A stretch of 56,465 bases of DNA from Bacteroidetes bacterium RIFCSPLOWO2_12_FULL_37_12 (lineage in GTDB: Bacteria; Bacteroidota; Bacteroidia; 2-12-FULL-37-12): positions 1-56,465 of the forward strand of contig MEPC01000032.1 in the NCBI GenBank assembly GCA_001769655.1, written 5' to 3'. The notes under the pieces are model-generated. The model worked only from the letters and a program-made list of their open reading frames with translations, was not told the origin of the DNA and made no database searches. The translations under genes were made by a program, and so were the position numbers. Numbering within the stretch: position 1 is the stretch's first letter; the number at the start of each line of letters is the position of its first letter. Shown here piece after piece: positions 8,684 to 48,818 of the stretch.

Positions 8684-9220
8684 ATGAGCAACGAAATAAT
8701 CATACCACAGGAAGTAATTTTAAGCAAGATTTATGAAATAAGAAGCGTAAAAGTGATGCTGGACAGAGATTTAGCGGAGCTATACGGAGTGGAAACAAAA
8801 TATTTAAAAAGACAAGTCAAGAGAAATATAGAACGCTTTCCGGAAGACTTTATGTTTGCATTGAATGAACAGGAGTTCAAAGAATGGAGGAGCCAATTTG
8901 TCACCTCCAATAAAGATAAAATGGGACTTCGTTATGCACCTTATGCTTTTACAGAGGACGGAGTGGCACAGTTATCAACTGTATTAAACAGTCAAAGGGC
9001 AATAAATGTAAACTTACAAATCATACGCCTTTTCAGCAGAATGCGGAAAATGCTCCTTACTCATAAAGATTTATTGATAGAGATGGAAAAAATCCGCAAA
9101 AAAATATCGGGACAAGATGAAAAAATTGACCTCATTTTTAATTACTTAAAACAGTTTATTAAAGAGCAAGAAACCCCCAGAAGGAAAATCGGTTACAGAT
9201 TCAGTAAAGATAAAGAATAA
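8684..9220 (+). CDS. ORF6N-domain DNA-binding protein
   Basis: The first ~90 residues match the ORF6N domain of phage and mobile-element regulators: ILSKIYEIRSVKVMLDRDLAELYGVETKYLKRQVKRN, then RFPEDFMF, and further on YAFTEDGVAQLSTVLNS. The last third is a charged coiled coil. Length (178 aa) is normal for the family. ORF6N proteins are thought to bind DNA and are common in Bacteroidota accessory regions, but their function is poorly defined. The gene has its own promoter box and follows the TA cassette. A broken relative is at 31519-31806. Confidence 0.88.
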   Translation: MSNEIIIPQEVILSKIYEIRSVKVMLDRDLAELYGVETKYLKRQVKRNIERFPEDFMFALNEQEFKEWRSQFVTSNKDKMGLRYAPYAFTEDGVAQLSTVLNSQRAINVNLQIIRLFSRMRKMLLTHKDLLIEMEKIRKKISGQDEKIDLIFNYLKQFIKEQETPRRKIGYRFSKDKE

Positions 9221-9488
9221 CTTGTCCTAAAGGGAAGTAGAATAAAACCACCCACATCTCCGTCCCGATAGCAAAATCACCCTTGTTTCACTGCGGGCTT
9301 TTTTTTTGCTATCGGGACTCCGCACGCATTCCCTTCTGCTGTTTTTTTCCGTCACACTTTTTGTATCCACCATTCTGCAAGCACATTGTTTTTTCTTTTC
9401 TATGTTTATTTTTTTAAGGTAAAAGAAAAAACAAAGAGCTTGCCCTCTTGCACAGACAAAAAGATGCGCCGGAAAAAAACAGCCCAAA

Positions 9489-9583
9489 GCTATTTTACAT
9501 AATACGAGTTATAAAACAGCCGCACAAAAAACCTACTGCACGAAAACCGAAGCTGTCTTATAACTTGTATTATGCAAAATAGC
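9489..9583. repeat. 32-bp inverted repeat (long hairpin)
   Basis: The arms 9489-9520 and 9552-9583 are reverse complements with about three mismatches and a 31-base loop. It is the longest member of the hairpin array. Confidence 0.8.
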
Positions 9584-9774
9584 CGCACGCTGACGCACCC
9601 CACCACACGAGGTGTGCCTCTCCGTCTCACCATCCACTACACAGGCACTTGTTATGCACACCTCCCGAAAAGGTCGGTCGGGTGCGCCTGCCGGCGGCAA
9701 GGCACTTTTTTAGTTTATTGGAATAGCGCAAAAAACCTGGAATTATGCACAAAACTAAGAGACGTTGGTAGTTC

Positions 9775-9849
9775 ACAATAGCGCCTAAGCTAAAGCTAAA
9801 TGCAGTGTGAGGAACGAACATTGCATTTAGCAACGCTTAGGCGCTGTTG
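9775..9849. repeat. Long inverted repeat with bulge (attC-like shape)
   Basis: The outer stem acaatagcgcctaagc pairs with gcttaggcgctgttgt, and the inner stem ctaaatgca pairs with tgcatttag. One side carries an extra base and mismatches between the two stem blocks. A two-block stem with unpaired bases resembles a folded integron attC site, but the canonical core heptamers are not clear. Confidence 0.6.
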
Positions 9850-9955
9850 TTTTTCTTTCACCGGAAAACAGCCCAAAACCCCCTAAAAAAAAATCAAAAA
9901 AGTTTCCTATGAAAGAAAAAAATACGTACCTTTATGCACTCTAATATCTTGAAAA

Positions 9956-11008
9956 ATGGGTTGCCTTAGATTAAGCTACTACGAAACAGAAAACGAATCC
10001 GAAAAAACGGAAGTATCTCCCTTGCGAATGGTGTGGAAAAATCCGAAGCCAGGCAAAATAAAAAAAGGAAAAATTTTTTCTTTCATAGGAAAAAAAATAC
10101 AATCATCGCCGGAGACCCGTAGCGAAAAAAAAGAAACATCCATTTTTTCTTTCATAGGAAAAAAGGAAGTGACACTAAAAAAGTATGAAAAGGTGAATCA
10201 TTTAGGGAATGTACAGGTTGTGATTAGTGATAGGAAGGTAGCAGTAGTGAAACCTGACAAAAGTTTTGAATATTGGAAAGCGGATGTGTTGAGTGCAAGC
10301 GATTATTATCCCTTTGGGATGCTGATGCCGGGGAGGAATTTTAAAAGTGATGGGTATAGGTTCGGGTTTAATGGCAAGGAAATGATCAACGAGATCAGAG
10401 GTTCGCCCGGAACGATGTATGATTATGGTTTTCGCATCTACTCTCCCGGATTGGGGAGGTTTTTGAGTGTTGACCCATTGTTTTTGTCCTATCCTTGGTT
10501 TACGCCGTATCAGTTTTCAGGAAATAATCCTATATTGTATATTGATTTGGACGGTTTGGAAGAAGCAAATCCTCAAGAAATTTCTTTAACTCAAACTGGA
10601 AAAACTCAAATTCAAAAAGTAGATGCACAAACTACTCAGACAACTGCAAGCAATAACACCCCAATAAAAAATGATGTAATTACCTCAAAAGCAAAGTGGA
10701 AGACACAATCACCAAATTGGGGACAATGTTATAAGACCACTGTTGATATACTGAAAGAAAGTGGCATTTCCAGTCCTGGATTGAAAAAAAATACTGTTCA
10801 AATGGCTTCAGAAAGCCAAGACCATACTTCTATTTCTGCAACAAAAGATTTCAGTAAAGGTATTGCAGAAATTGATAAAGCGCTTGATAAAGGGGACGGT
10901 GTAATTGTTGGGGTGAGCCATACTTATGATTATGCAAAAACAAAAAATAGTGGAAACGATGTTGATGGTACTACTAACACCACTGACCATTTTGTGGTTG
11001 TATATTGA
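9956..11008 (+). CDS. Short RHS-core protein with papain-like toxin tip, interrupted by TGA
   Basis: The 350-residue product is a stand-alone RHS tip gene. It starts with MGCLRLSYYE, a typical opening for orphan RHS tips. An internal repeat of IFSFIGKK follows, then the RHS core (HLGNV, SDRKVAV, DYYPFG, FNGKE, YSPGLGRFLSVDP, GNNPI). The tip from about 205 looks like a papain-fold cysteine peptidase: NWGQC with C258, and a late histidine H345 in DHFVVVY. The frame then hits TGA at 11006-11008. Coding potential continues in the same frame for 81 codons, so the full tip was probably about 431 aa. A lipoprotein gene, candidate immunity, follows. Confidence 0.8.
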   Translation: MGCLRLSYYETENESEKTEVSPLRMVWKNPKPGKIKKGKIFSFIGKKIQSSPETRSEKKETSIFSFIGKKEVTLKKYEKVNHLGNVQVVISDRKVAVVKPDKSFEYWKADVLSASDYYPFGMLMPGRNFKSDGYRFGFNGKEMINEIRGSPGTMYDYGFRIYSPGLGRFLSVDPLFLSYPWFTPYQFSGNNPILYIDLDGLEEANPQEISLTQTGKTQIQKVDAQTTQTTASNNTPIKNDVITSKAKWKTQSPNWGQCYKTTVDILKESGISSPGLKKNTVQMASESQDHTSISATKDFSKGIAEIDKALDKGDGVIVGVSHTYDYAKTKNSGNDVDGTTNTTDHFVVVY

Positions 11009-11254
11009 AGAAAATATGATACAGAGAAAAGACAATATTACTATCTGTTCTATGAAGTAGGTTCTACACATCCAGAGCAAGGAGCCAGCAATCAAAATAG
11101 ATTATATCTTGATGAAAAAAATAAGATACTTTCAGGTAGAACCGCCTACAGCCCAGGTAGGAAATATACGGTCAGCCAAGTAAGGGCAAATGAAAATATT
11201 GCTGACACGGAATCATCAAAAGTGTCAAAGAAAGTAACTTCCAATACTCCATGA
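11009..11254 (+). pseudogene. In-frame continuation of the RHS papain-like tip after a nonsense codon
   Basis: Directly after TGA 11006-11008, 81 sense codons continue in the same frame to a second TGA at 11252-11254. They read RKYDTEKRQYYYLFYEVG, then ..SNQNRLYLDE and GRTAYSPGRKYTVSQVR. This is what is expected downstream of the catalytic His in such tips. A single TGG-to-TGA change would explain the break. No other gene in the window requires TGA readthrough. Confidence 0.75.
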
Positions 11255-11277
11255 GATAAATGAAAAATGAGTTTTAT

Positions 11278-11955
11278 ATGAAAACAATTATTTTTATAAT
11301 TTTTATTTGTACCATATCCTGCGCTAACAATGGTCAGACTAATACAGGAAGCTGGAAAAATGAAAACGGAGACACTTTATTTTGCACTGATTCGGCTAAA
11401 AGTAGTTTTGAAAATTTTCTTACAAAATTTGTCCCAACCTCAATCCCTGTAGCTATATCTCCATTATTGGATAAATTTCCTTTTGAAAGGGAACTAAATC
11501 GAAACGAAGCGTTGAAATATCTTTGTAATGATAAAAATGAATGTCTAAAAGAACCTGGTGGAGGGTACTATCAACACTACTATATGAATATTTTTTCTAC
11601 TAATAGATTTACTATTGTATCGTACTACAGAACATCTTCAATTGGTTTGGACTGTATTCTTACATCATTTACGAAACAGGGAAAAAAAATGGATGAAGTA
11701 ATTATTGCAGGTCAAATTGATAATATTTCTCAAATGGAAGCAAATATAGATAGCTCTTTCAGCATTGTCTCTCAAAACATAGTGTATGGAGAAGGGAAAA
11801 CCCTAATAACCAGCGATACTTTAAAAGCACAAAAATTTATATCTATATTTTCCCTCAGTGATAGCGGAAAATTTATCTTAAAGGATAAAAGGAAGGAAGA
11901 AGGATTGTATGTGTTTGATAAAAAACAAAACTTTAGACTTGTAAAGTTGAAATAA
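11278..11955 (+). CDS. Predicted lipoprotein, candidate immunity protein for the papain-like RHS tip
   Basis: From the Met at 11278 the protein opens with a lipoprotein signal (MKTIIFIIFICTISC, lipobox ending in Cys), giving about 225 aa. It carries four further Cys residues and no recognised domain. An upstream in-frame ATG at 11260 is possible but would weaken the signal peptide. It begins 23 bp after the end of the ancestral RHS frame, the usual position of an immunity gene. A membrane-anchored periplasmic protein is a sensible inhibitor for a secreted peptidase. Function is inferred from position only. Confidence 0.65.
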   Translation: MKTIIFIIFICTISCANNGQTNTGSWKNENGDTLFCTDSAKSSFENFLTKFVPTSIPVAISPLLDKFPFERELNRNEALKYLCNDKNECLKEPGGGYYQHYYMNIFSTNRFTIVSYYRTSSIGLDCILTSFTKQGKKMDEVIIAGQIDNISQMEANIDSSFSIVSQNIVYGEGKTLITSDTLKAQKFISIFSLSDSGKFILKDKRKEEGLYVFDKKQNFRLVKLK

Positions 11956-47025: not shown

Positions 47026-47847
47026 ATGAAACCACTTAAAACTTTTTCCATCACACCTACGCATTATTTAGCGCTTCTCTTATTCTTTTTAATATCCATT
47101 CCTGTAGCCCCCCCTTGCTTTTCCCAATACATTGAAATAAACCGAACCGATGGCACCCAATTAAAATTATTGACCTCTACTATTGACAGTATTAAATTGG
47201 TCTCCACCACAGCAGGTACCGTAACCGACATAGACGGAAATGTTTACAGCACAATTACCATAGGCACACAAGTATGGATGAAAGAAAACCTGAAAGTAAC
47301 CAAATACCGAAACGGTGATGCCATTGCAACGACAACATCTACAAGCATTCCCAATGACAGTACTTCAAAATACCAGTGGGCATATAATAATGACAATAAC
47401 AATGCAGCAACTTATGGTCGGTTATACACTTGGTATGCAATTACTGACAGCCGGAATGTATGCCCTGCGGGATGGCATGTACCATCCGATGCCGAATGGT
47501 GTACATTGGAAAACTTTGTAGAAGTAAATACCGATCCTACTTGTAATTTAACTGGAGGGCGAGGAACAAATACCGGAGGCAAATTAAAAGAAGCCGGAAC
47601 AAGCCATTGGTCAAGCCCAAACTCAGGAGCTGATAACAGTAGTGGTTTTACAGCGCTTCCGGGCGGTTACCGCCTCGCCGCCGATGGTTCGTTCGGCTAT
47701 CTTGGCGACTACGGTCTCTGGTGGTCAGCTACGGAGGGCGATGCTACACTCGCATGGTACCGGGACTTGGGCTACGATTACGCCGTCGCTTACCGGTACA
47801 ACGACACTAAGAGTTTAGGTTTTAGCGTGAGGTGCGTGAGGGATTAA
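47026..47847 (+). CDS. FISUMP-domain secreted protein with DGR-like variable C-terminus
   Basis: The 273-residue protein has a signal peptide (about 1-34) and a short beta-domain. The FISUMP (C-type-lectin-like) domain follows from about 64: VTDIDGNVYSTITIGTQVWMKENL, LYTWYA, CPAGWHVPSDAEW, GGKLKEAG, GFTALPGGYR and FSVRCVRD. From residue 216 to 264 nearly every variable position is encoded by a codon ending in C or T (ctc, gcc, gat, ggc, tac, gac). The fixed positions (GSF, LG, WWSATE, AW, R, L, KS) match the usual FISUMP frame, where such positions are Asn (AAC/AAT). This is the pattern left by adenine mutagenesis of a diversity-generating retroelement. The local GC content is also higher than in the gene body. 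Confidence 0.85.
   Translation: MKPLKTFSITPTHYLALLLFFLISIPVAPPCFSQYIEINRTDGTQLKLLTSTIDSIKLVSTTAGTVTDIDGNVYSTITIGTQVWMKENLKVTKYRNGDAIATTTSTSIPNDSTSKYQWAYNNDNNNAATYGRLYTWYAITDSRNVCPAGWHVPSDAEWCTLENFVEVNTDPTCNLTGGRGTNTGGKLKEAGTSHWSSPNSGADNSSGFTALPGGYRLAADGSFGYLGDYGLWWSATEGDATLAWYRDLGYDYAVAYRYNDTKSLGFSVRCVRD
47671..47823 (+). other. Candidate DGR variable region (VR)
   Basis: The last ~50 codons of the FISUMP gene. Variable codons are NNC/NNT while invariant ones keep ordinary codons, as expected if a template with AAC/AAT codons was copied with A-to-N changes. No template repeat or reverse transcriptase was found in this window, so the machinery would have to be elsewhere. Confidence 0.6.
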
Positions 47848-47889
47848 TTTATTTGACTATTTGATTATTTGACTATTTAACTCGGGGGT

Positions 47890-47912
47890 ACAGGGGGCTT
47901 TTAGCCCCCTGT
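47890..47912. terminator. GC-rich 10-bp hairpin just after the FISUMP gene
   Basis: acagggggct / agccccctgt with a 3-base loop, 43 bases after the stop. It may be an intrinsic terminator without a strong T-run, part of the RAYT-associated palindromes, or the stem-loop that lies just downstream of a VR in several known DGRs. Confidence 0.55.
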
Positions 47913-47920
47913 CGAATTAA

Positions 47921-47989
47921 AGTTTTGACAACTTTTTATGGATAGTGTAAGAATATTGCAACGATATACCCATATAAGTTGTCAAAACT
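47921..47989. repeat. REP-like inverted repeat upstream of the RAYT gene
   Basis: agttttgacaact (47921-47933) pairs with agttgtcaaaact (47977-47989), 13 perfect bases. The same core (ttgacaactt) forms a longer palindrome inside the RAYT gene. Confidence 0.75.
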
Positions 47990-48002: not shown

Positions 48003-48818
48003 ATGGCATACACCGAACATTATTATACCCAATTTGAAACGGGATGTTTTTACCATGTTTACAACCGCGCAGTTGACAGTAAGCCCATGTTTAAAAATGA
48101 GGGGAATTATTTATATTTTTTGAGGCAATATGGTAAATATTTATCTTCGGTGTTAGACACGTTTGCGTATTGTTTATTAGGAAATCATTTTCATTTATTG
48201 GTACGGGTGCGGGATCCATGGGCTGTTGGGGCTACAACTGCGGCACCGCCTGTCACCAGTGCAGGTTGGGGGGGCGGTTGCGTTGGGTGTCGTACCGCTG
48301 GAACCGCTGGTACTACCGGTACAGCAGATTTGACAACTTTTCAAAAGTTGTCAAATCTAATGCTGGCACCCATGCCGGCACCCACCCCCACATCACAACA
48401 ACAATCCACCCCCCCCAAAACCACCCACGATATCGTAAGCCATCAATTCAGGAAATTTTTTCAGTCATATTCCATGGCGTTTAACAAACAACAGGATAGG
48501 ATTGGAACATTATTTCAAACCCCGTTTAAACGTGCTCTCGTTGATGGTAAGCAATATCTGCGTTATCTGGTTTATTATATTCACGCAAATCCCCAATTGC
48601 ATGGTATAACAGAAGATTTCAGGGATTGGAAATGGAATTCCTATCATTCAATCCTATCGGATGAACAAAGCAAAATTAAAAAAGCAGAAGTACTGAATTG
48701 GTTTAATGACAAAGAGACCTTCCAAAGATTTCATGATACACAATTGATGAATTTTAATAAAGAGGAGAATTTTTCAGAGTATCATTTAGAAGACGAATAT
48801 ATAATAGAAAAAGTATGA
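48003..48818 (+). CDS. REP-associated tyrosine transposase (RAYT, Y1 family)
   Basis: The 271-residue protein has the Y1/HUH signature: an N-terminal FYHVYNRAVD, then the metal-binding histidines in LLGNHFHLLVRV. The C-terminal YLRYLVYYIHANPQLHG block holds the candidate catalytic Tyr. RAYTs cut single-stranded DNA at REP palindromes. Residues ~72-140 are an unusual low-complexity insert (Thr/Ala/Gly/Pro-rich) not expected in the family. It contains a 33-nt palindrome in its DNA. The stop overlaps the next ATG by 4 bases. Confidence 0.87.
   Translation: MAYTEHYYTQFETGCFYHVYNRAVDSKPMFKNEGNYLYFLRQYGKYLSSVLDTFAYCLLGNHFHLLVRVRDPWAVGATTAAPPVTSAGWGGGCVGCRTAGTAGTTGTADLTTFQKLSNLMLAPMPAPTPTSQQQSTPPKTTHDIVSHQFRKFFQSYSMAFNKQQDRIGTLFQTPFKRALVDGKQYLRYLVYYIHANPQLHGITEDFRDWKWNSYHSILSDEQSKIKKAEVLNWFNDKETFQRFHDTQLMNFNKEENFSEYHLEDEYIIEKV
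48326..48358. repeat. REP-like palindrome inside the RAYT coding sequence
   Basis: A perfect 16-bp stem around a single base: agatttgacaactttt, c, and its complement. It shares the ttgacaact core with the upstream 47921/47977 repeat, so the transposase gene seems to contain a copy of its own target-type element. Confidence 0.85.

Follow-up and report, generated by a model that had tools for sequence, protein, structure and literature searches.

A FISUMP gene and its paralogue as a proposed orphan target pair of a diversity-generating retroelement in a Bacteroidota genome

The FISUMP gene and its 3′ flank

In the current study, we characterized a FISUMP (PF09603/TIGR02145) protein gene, proposed to be an orphan target of a diversity-generating retroelement (DGR), in the assembly of Bacteroidetes bacterium RIFCSPLOWO2_12_FULL_37_12. 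The window, i.e., the whole stretch of 56,465 nucleotides that was analyzed, is one entire contig (C32) of an assembly of 3.94 Mb in 43 contigs that is 97.9% complete. Six FISUMP genes occur in this genome, and searches at the genus, family, and order level returned the genome itself alone. The window protein matches PF09603 (FISUMP/Fib_succ_major) with E=9e-47 and 160.2 bits (curated cut-off 33.9) and TIGR02145 with E=6e-38 and 131.2 bits (curated cut-off 41.65), and the FISUMP/Fib_succ_major domain accounts for residues 77-272 of its 273 residues. A signal peptide is probable, the call being based on the hydrophobic N-terminus alone. An AlphaFold2 model of the protein has a pLDDT of about 88-98 across most of the domain; when the modelled domain was searched against the PDB, C-type lectin entries were returned at E>3 only, with no significant fold match. 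The features of the locus are collected in Table 1.

Table 1. Features at the 3′ end of the FISUMP locus, with positions in the window.
Feature	Position	Strand	Description
FISUMP (PF09603/TIGR02145) protein gene	47026..47847	+	273 aa; proposed orphan DGR target
Variable region (VR)	47644..47814	+	Codons common with C24 at conserved residues, differing at AAY-derived codons
Domain 3′ end (LGFSVRCVRD, stop)	47815..47847	+	Window/C24 synonymous differences resume: 4/9 vs. 2/26 in VR
Short tandem repeat, TTTGACTA-type	47852..47882	+	Just past stop; seen after other FISUMP ends too
10-bp GC hairpin, TTT loop	47890..47912	.	ACAGGGGGCT-TTT-AGCCCCCTGT, 42 nt past stop

Repeats of the TTTGACTA type follow five of 63 FISUMP stops vs. 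five of 796 other ORF ends. Besides the window, the carriers are L014, L024 (a true DGR target), L043, and L141, which belong to unrelated genomes. The hairpin has a z of -5.1 and no second copy in the genome when up to 3 mismatches are allowed. Since no T-run comes after it, it is not a canonical terminator. An earlier note on this DNA had likened the hairpin to those beside some known variable regions; the 10-bp GC stem is real, but it lends no support to a DGR. Hairpins are neither commoner nor stronger beside signature-bearing FISUMP genes (DGR-like vs. other FISUMP genes, p=0.64 for strength), and we rejected this feature as non-discriminating. The paralogue C24, described below, has a weak hairpin only. 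Further downstream, the gene at 48003-48818 shows a resemblance to the REP-associated tyrosine transposase family NF047646 (E=3e-8) that falls well short of the curated cut-off, and it contains a G+C-rich low-complexity insertion (~48210-48420) with the palindrome TTTGACAACTTTTCAAAAGTTGTCAAA. The GACAACTT/AAGTTGTC arms of that palindrome also flank 47925-47983, upstream of the same gene. Hairpins may belong to REP-associated tyrosine transposase elements.

The variable region and its codons

The VR makes up the last ~57 codons of the FISUMP gene and matches the template repeats (TRs) of FISUMP-type DGRs in other bacterial genomes. Both of its limits were taken from a comparison with C24, a FISUMP paralogue on a different contig of the same genome with an N-terminus unrelated to that of the window protein (C24:242229-242436, the counterpart of 47640-47850 in the window). 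The earlier note had the variable stretch start at 47671; the block is indeed present, but it begins slightly upstream, at 47644, and its first variable codon is the TAC at 47668-47670. The segment between the VR and the stop codon presumably occupies the position of an end resembling the initiation-of-mutagenic-homing element.

Because the genome's own template is absent from the assembly, the template had to be inferred. The reference for our codon test was the set of 23 AAC/AAT (AAY) codons in the template of L024, a complete heterologous DGR. At these 23 sites the window has 22 NNY codons, 18 of which are NNC, and a single codon is unchanged; examples of the window codons are TAC, CTC, GCC, GAT, GGC, TAT, and GAC. 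From the amino acids present and the codon usage of the window genes, 5.1 NNC (p=6e-9) and 16.1 NNY (p=1.5e-4) would be expected, in agreement with the DGR signature that had been read from the C-terminus beforehand. Additionally, the third base is C or T in every one of the nine four-fold codons at the template AAY sites (joint p=3e-5). No comparable excess was found in the same third-base test for the other VR codons (8 vs. 6.7 expected) or for the rest of the gene (53/206 vs. 41.2 expected). Among the 80-odd FISUMP ends that were scored, the lowest NNY count was 12/23 and the highest 23/23. Proven targets share the upper end of this range with the window gene and C24 (23/23), whereas the remaining four paralogues of this genome score 12-17 (C4, 17/23; C33, 16/23; second C4 copy, 13/21; C8, 12/23).

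The first A of the AAY codons corresponds in the window to G in 11 cases, T in 8, C in 2, and A in 2, vs. A in 13, T in 4, C in 3, and G in 3 for the second A, which is also kept more often than the first in proven DGR targets. Over the VR as a whole, mismatches between the window and the L024 template fall on 41 of 64 template A and on 25 of the 114 remaining bases (OR 6.3, p=3e-8), and there is no excess when the roles of window and template are swapped (OR 0.4). The template in this A-mismatch test is that of another genome. Taken alone, the test is weak, because some excess at A arises whenever a FISUMP gene is set against an A-rich template; the codon test therefore weighs more.

Comparison of the window gene with C24 gave a second line of evidence. 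In the part that precedes the VR, the two genes use different codons for 38 of their 103 shared residues. Synonymous differences were seen at only two of the 26 shared residues within the VR, vs. 42 of 112 outside it (Fisher p=0.0018), whereas nonsynonymous differences were more frequent in the VR (26/52) than upstream (30/133; p=3e-4). By codon position (1/2/3), the differences number 25/16/58 before the VR, 19/18/6 inside it, and 2/2/7 beyond it, and the shift between the VR and the upstream part is significant at p=2e-6. No such block was found between C4 and the window, where synonymous differences amount to 15/31 in the VR and 45/106 outside it (p=0.68). A sharp-edged block in which codons were recently shared but residues are scrambled is what error-prone copying of a template would leave. 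Since codons at conserved residues are near-identical and yet half of the residues differ, through positions 1 and 2, the probable origin of the two blocks is A-to-N copying of a single template or of two near-identical ones. Restoring A at the sites where window and C24 disagree yields what would be a typical FISUMP template, encoding roughly GFTALPGGNRNADGSFNNLGNNGNWWSATENDATNAWNRNLNYDNANVNRNNNTKS.

About 20 of the 45 VR differences between the two copies involve no A in either copy, and 12 of these are C/T, with C24 carrying the T at eight of the 12. Such differences need mutation of both copies, later C-to-T drift in C24, or two slightly different templates, and their pattern suggests drift or two templates. 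The earlier note had proposed A-to-N copying and would have abandoned it if a complete genome held neither template nor reverse transcriptase (RT) and its FISUMP paralogues lacked A-restricted differences. The first absence is what we found in this nearly complete assembly; C24 nonetheless shows A-restricted differences, plus some C/T, and the proposal stands up both against this paralogue and against the independent complete FISUMP DGR of L024.

Complete FISUMP DGRs elsewhere and the search for a core

Fib_succ_major is a published DGR target domain, known from variable proteins in a human-microbiome survey (PMC4159848), and the earlier note was right to regard FISUMP proteins as known targets, as complete FISUMP DGRs in other genomes also attest. 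Relatives of the window protein were gathered from 80 contigs. Among these, FISUMP-targeting DGRs are real, and the L024 genome has targets on more than one contig. In L024, from a Cytophagaceae MAG, the order is FISUMP target (8897-10651), bAvd (PF22296, E=1e-14), template (~11201-11380), and an RT cut off by the contig end. The template is non-coding and reads PGGNRNNNGTYNNIGNNGNWWSSTENSTTNAWNRNLNYNNGNSNRNNNNKQNGFSVRC, and its target differs from it at 26 sites, all of them at template A. The same genome holds three more fitting targets, one on another contig, L035 (35/35 differences at A), and two in L022 (33/41 and 30/40 at A), and a further FISUMP copy, L128, has the same kind of ending. 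Independent template and RT pairs were found in G026 (L107 and L115; RT motifs IGNLTSQ and YVDD), and four genomes of the window's own phylum carry such pairs (L140, L142-L144).

Several other observations were made in this set. In the VR of the L035 target, around L035:10555, an in-frame TAG stands where the template has AAG, apparently a self-inflicted knockout by A-to-T copying. A FISUMP end in a genome of the same class (L141, around 1500-1690) has two stops inside a VR-like block with otherwise DGR-like codons. A single ORF at L014:9400-10600, in a MAG labelled Nitrospiria, encodes two tandem FISUMP domains, each with a VR-like end of 23/23 NNY. In G186, of the same phylum, there are two non-coding, Asn-rich, template-like FISUMP ends (L139 and L146). 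The genome G021 contains FISUMP VR-like genes and, in L106, a DGR of a separate type, with a DGR-type RT adjoining an FGE-sulfatase-like template. The RTs of L103 and L106 are DGR-like, but neither has a FISUMP template beside it, and both were rejected as FISUMP DGR RTs. FISUMP relatives in viral contigs (L147-L149) had no RT or template, and scanning viral contigs for exact patterns from the conserved parts of the VR gave no hit other than an unrelated phage sequence that matched by chance.

The earlier note proposed that the genome be searched for a near-identical repeat bearing A at the variable positions and for a DGR-type RT, and neither turned up in the 97.9%-complete assembly. A PF00078 profile, which detected RTs in known genomes, found none here, and no RT was found at E<=1 with a FISUMP-DGR RT as the query. 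DNA searches of the assembly with the VR and with the A-restored VR returned FISUMP genes only. Since these searches recovered paralogues of 67-76% identity, they would have picked up an intact template had the assembly contained one. No Avd was found in the assembly either; one sub-threshold bAvd-like match is a 23S rRNA intervening-sequence (IVP) protein and was rejected. With neither RT nor template anywhere in the assembly, the earlier caveat that a distant DGR acts in trans, or that the block is a frozen past variant, was apt.

Origin of the probably rewritten ends

Judging from the codon test and the comparison with C24, we consider it highly probable that the C-terminal ~57 codons of the window FISUMP gene were written by a DGR. 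The window gene and C24 would accordingly be classed as an orphan DGR target pair, with the signature present and the core absent from the assembly. In such a history, an error-prone RT would copy a template repeat rich in AAC/AAT codons, random bases would be placed opposite template adenines, and the cDNA would replace the end of the window gene and that of the unlinked C24 paralogue. Most likely, the variant is frozen, the core having been lost or the targets having arrived in diversified form without one. In this account we infer that the copying (mutagenic retrohoming) took place, when it did so, and that the core has been lost.

Two other explanations overlap with this claim, and the likelihoods that we attach to them divide the question of where the core is. 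The first is that a complete, possibly active DGR lies on unassembled DNA (a gap, plasmid, or prophage) and acts in trans on the window gene and C24. The assembly leaves room for it, being 97.9% complete and in 43 contigs, FISUMP DGRs reach targets on other contigs (L035, L022), and the window block looks fresh, its four-fold codons at AAY sites all ending in C or T. Set against this are the lack of any RT or template fragment in the assembly, even at E<=1 for the RT, and the partly drifted look of C24 (C-to-T); we regard the explanation as possible but rather unlikely. The second, to which we give slightly less weight, is that horizontal transfer brought in the window gene and C24 after their diversification in another organism, and that the present lineage never had a DGR. 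The MAGs with close relatives of the gene include some binned as Nitrospirota along with Bacteroidota ones, L012 being among the nearest, and the G+C content is 58% in the variable block relative to 41% in the upstream part of the gene and 36% in the window. A-to-N copying would by itself be expected to give the block a high G+C content, though, and a tree built on the non-variable part pairs the window gene with C24 as sisters (94/94) and groups them weakly (87/73) with two other paralogues of the same genome and L012. This grouping appears to favor a resident target family, while transfer remains compatible with it. That a target family without a core of its own was repeatedly rewritten in trans by an RT and template on a visiting mobile element or plasmid strikes us as improbable. 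Least probable of all, and the one rival that contradicts the main claim, is that no DGR was involved and that the block was exchanged among FISUMP paralogues by gene conversion, followed by positive selection at binding-site residues; this would account for why window and C24 have almost the same codons where residues are conserved, but it leaves unexplained the C/T at position 3 with its strong C excess over host codon usage, the match of the changed sites to adenines of independent templates, and the same pattern in proven DGR targets.

Rewriting by a DGR, the reading that we prefer, places the window pair among known systems. It shares with the Bacteroidota FISUMP DGR targets (L024; PMC4159848) the domain, the C-terminal variable block, and the AAY-template codon pattern, although those targets are accompanied by a template and RT in their genomes (adjoining the target in L024) and the window assembly is without both. 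Treponema denticola isolates are known that have target genes but no RT or TR, which the authors took for remnants or for targets acquired alone (PMC4891356). These isolates are alike in having diversified target genes in a genome without the core. In contrast, their targets are of the FGE-sulfatase type and core-bearing isolates of the same species are known, whereas the window target is FISUMP and searches of its genus, family, and order yielded no second genome. The DGR of Bordetella phage BPP-1 (Mtd, Brt, Avd) is alike in that mutagenic retrohoming, directed by adenines, alters the 3′ end of a gene, a process that would also have taken place in the window, but it forms a complete cassette in one phage, and neither a core nor a phage context was found for the window. 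FISUMP DGR targets and core-less targets are thus both already published kinds, and the window pair is a further case. The FISUMP-domain protein of the window is probably located at the surface or secreted, and its variable face, if it resembles known DGR targets in this respect, would serve in display or binding.

These results indicate that DGR-written genes are recognizable without an RT or template, from codon fossils alone, that is, from AAY sites read as NNY with an excess of C at the third base and from synonymous sites frozen between paralogues. Orphan or trans DGR targets are probably undercounted, because the metagenome survey of Roux et al., whose own approach could not detect remote targets (PMC8144416), would miss them. 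The NNY/NNC codon test could find such targets.
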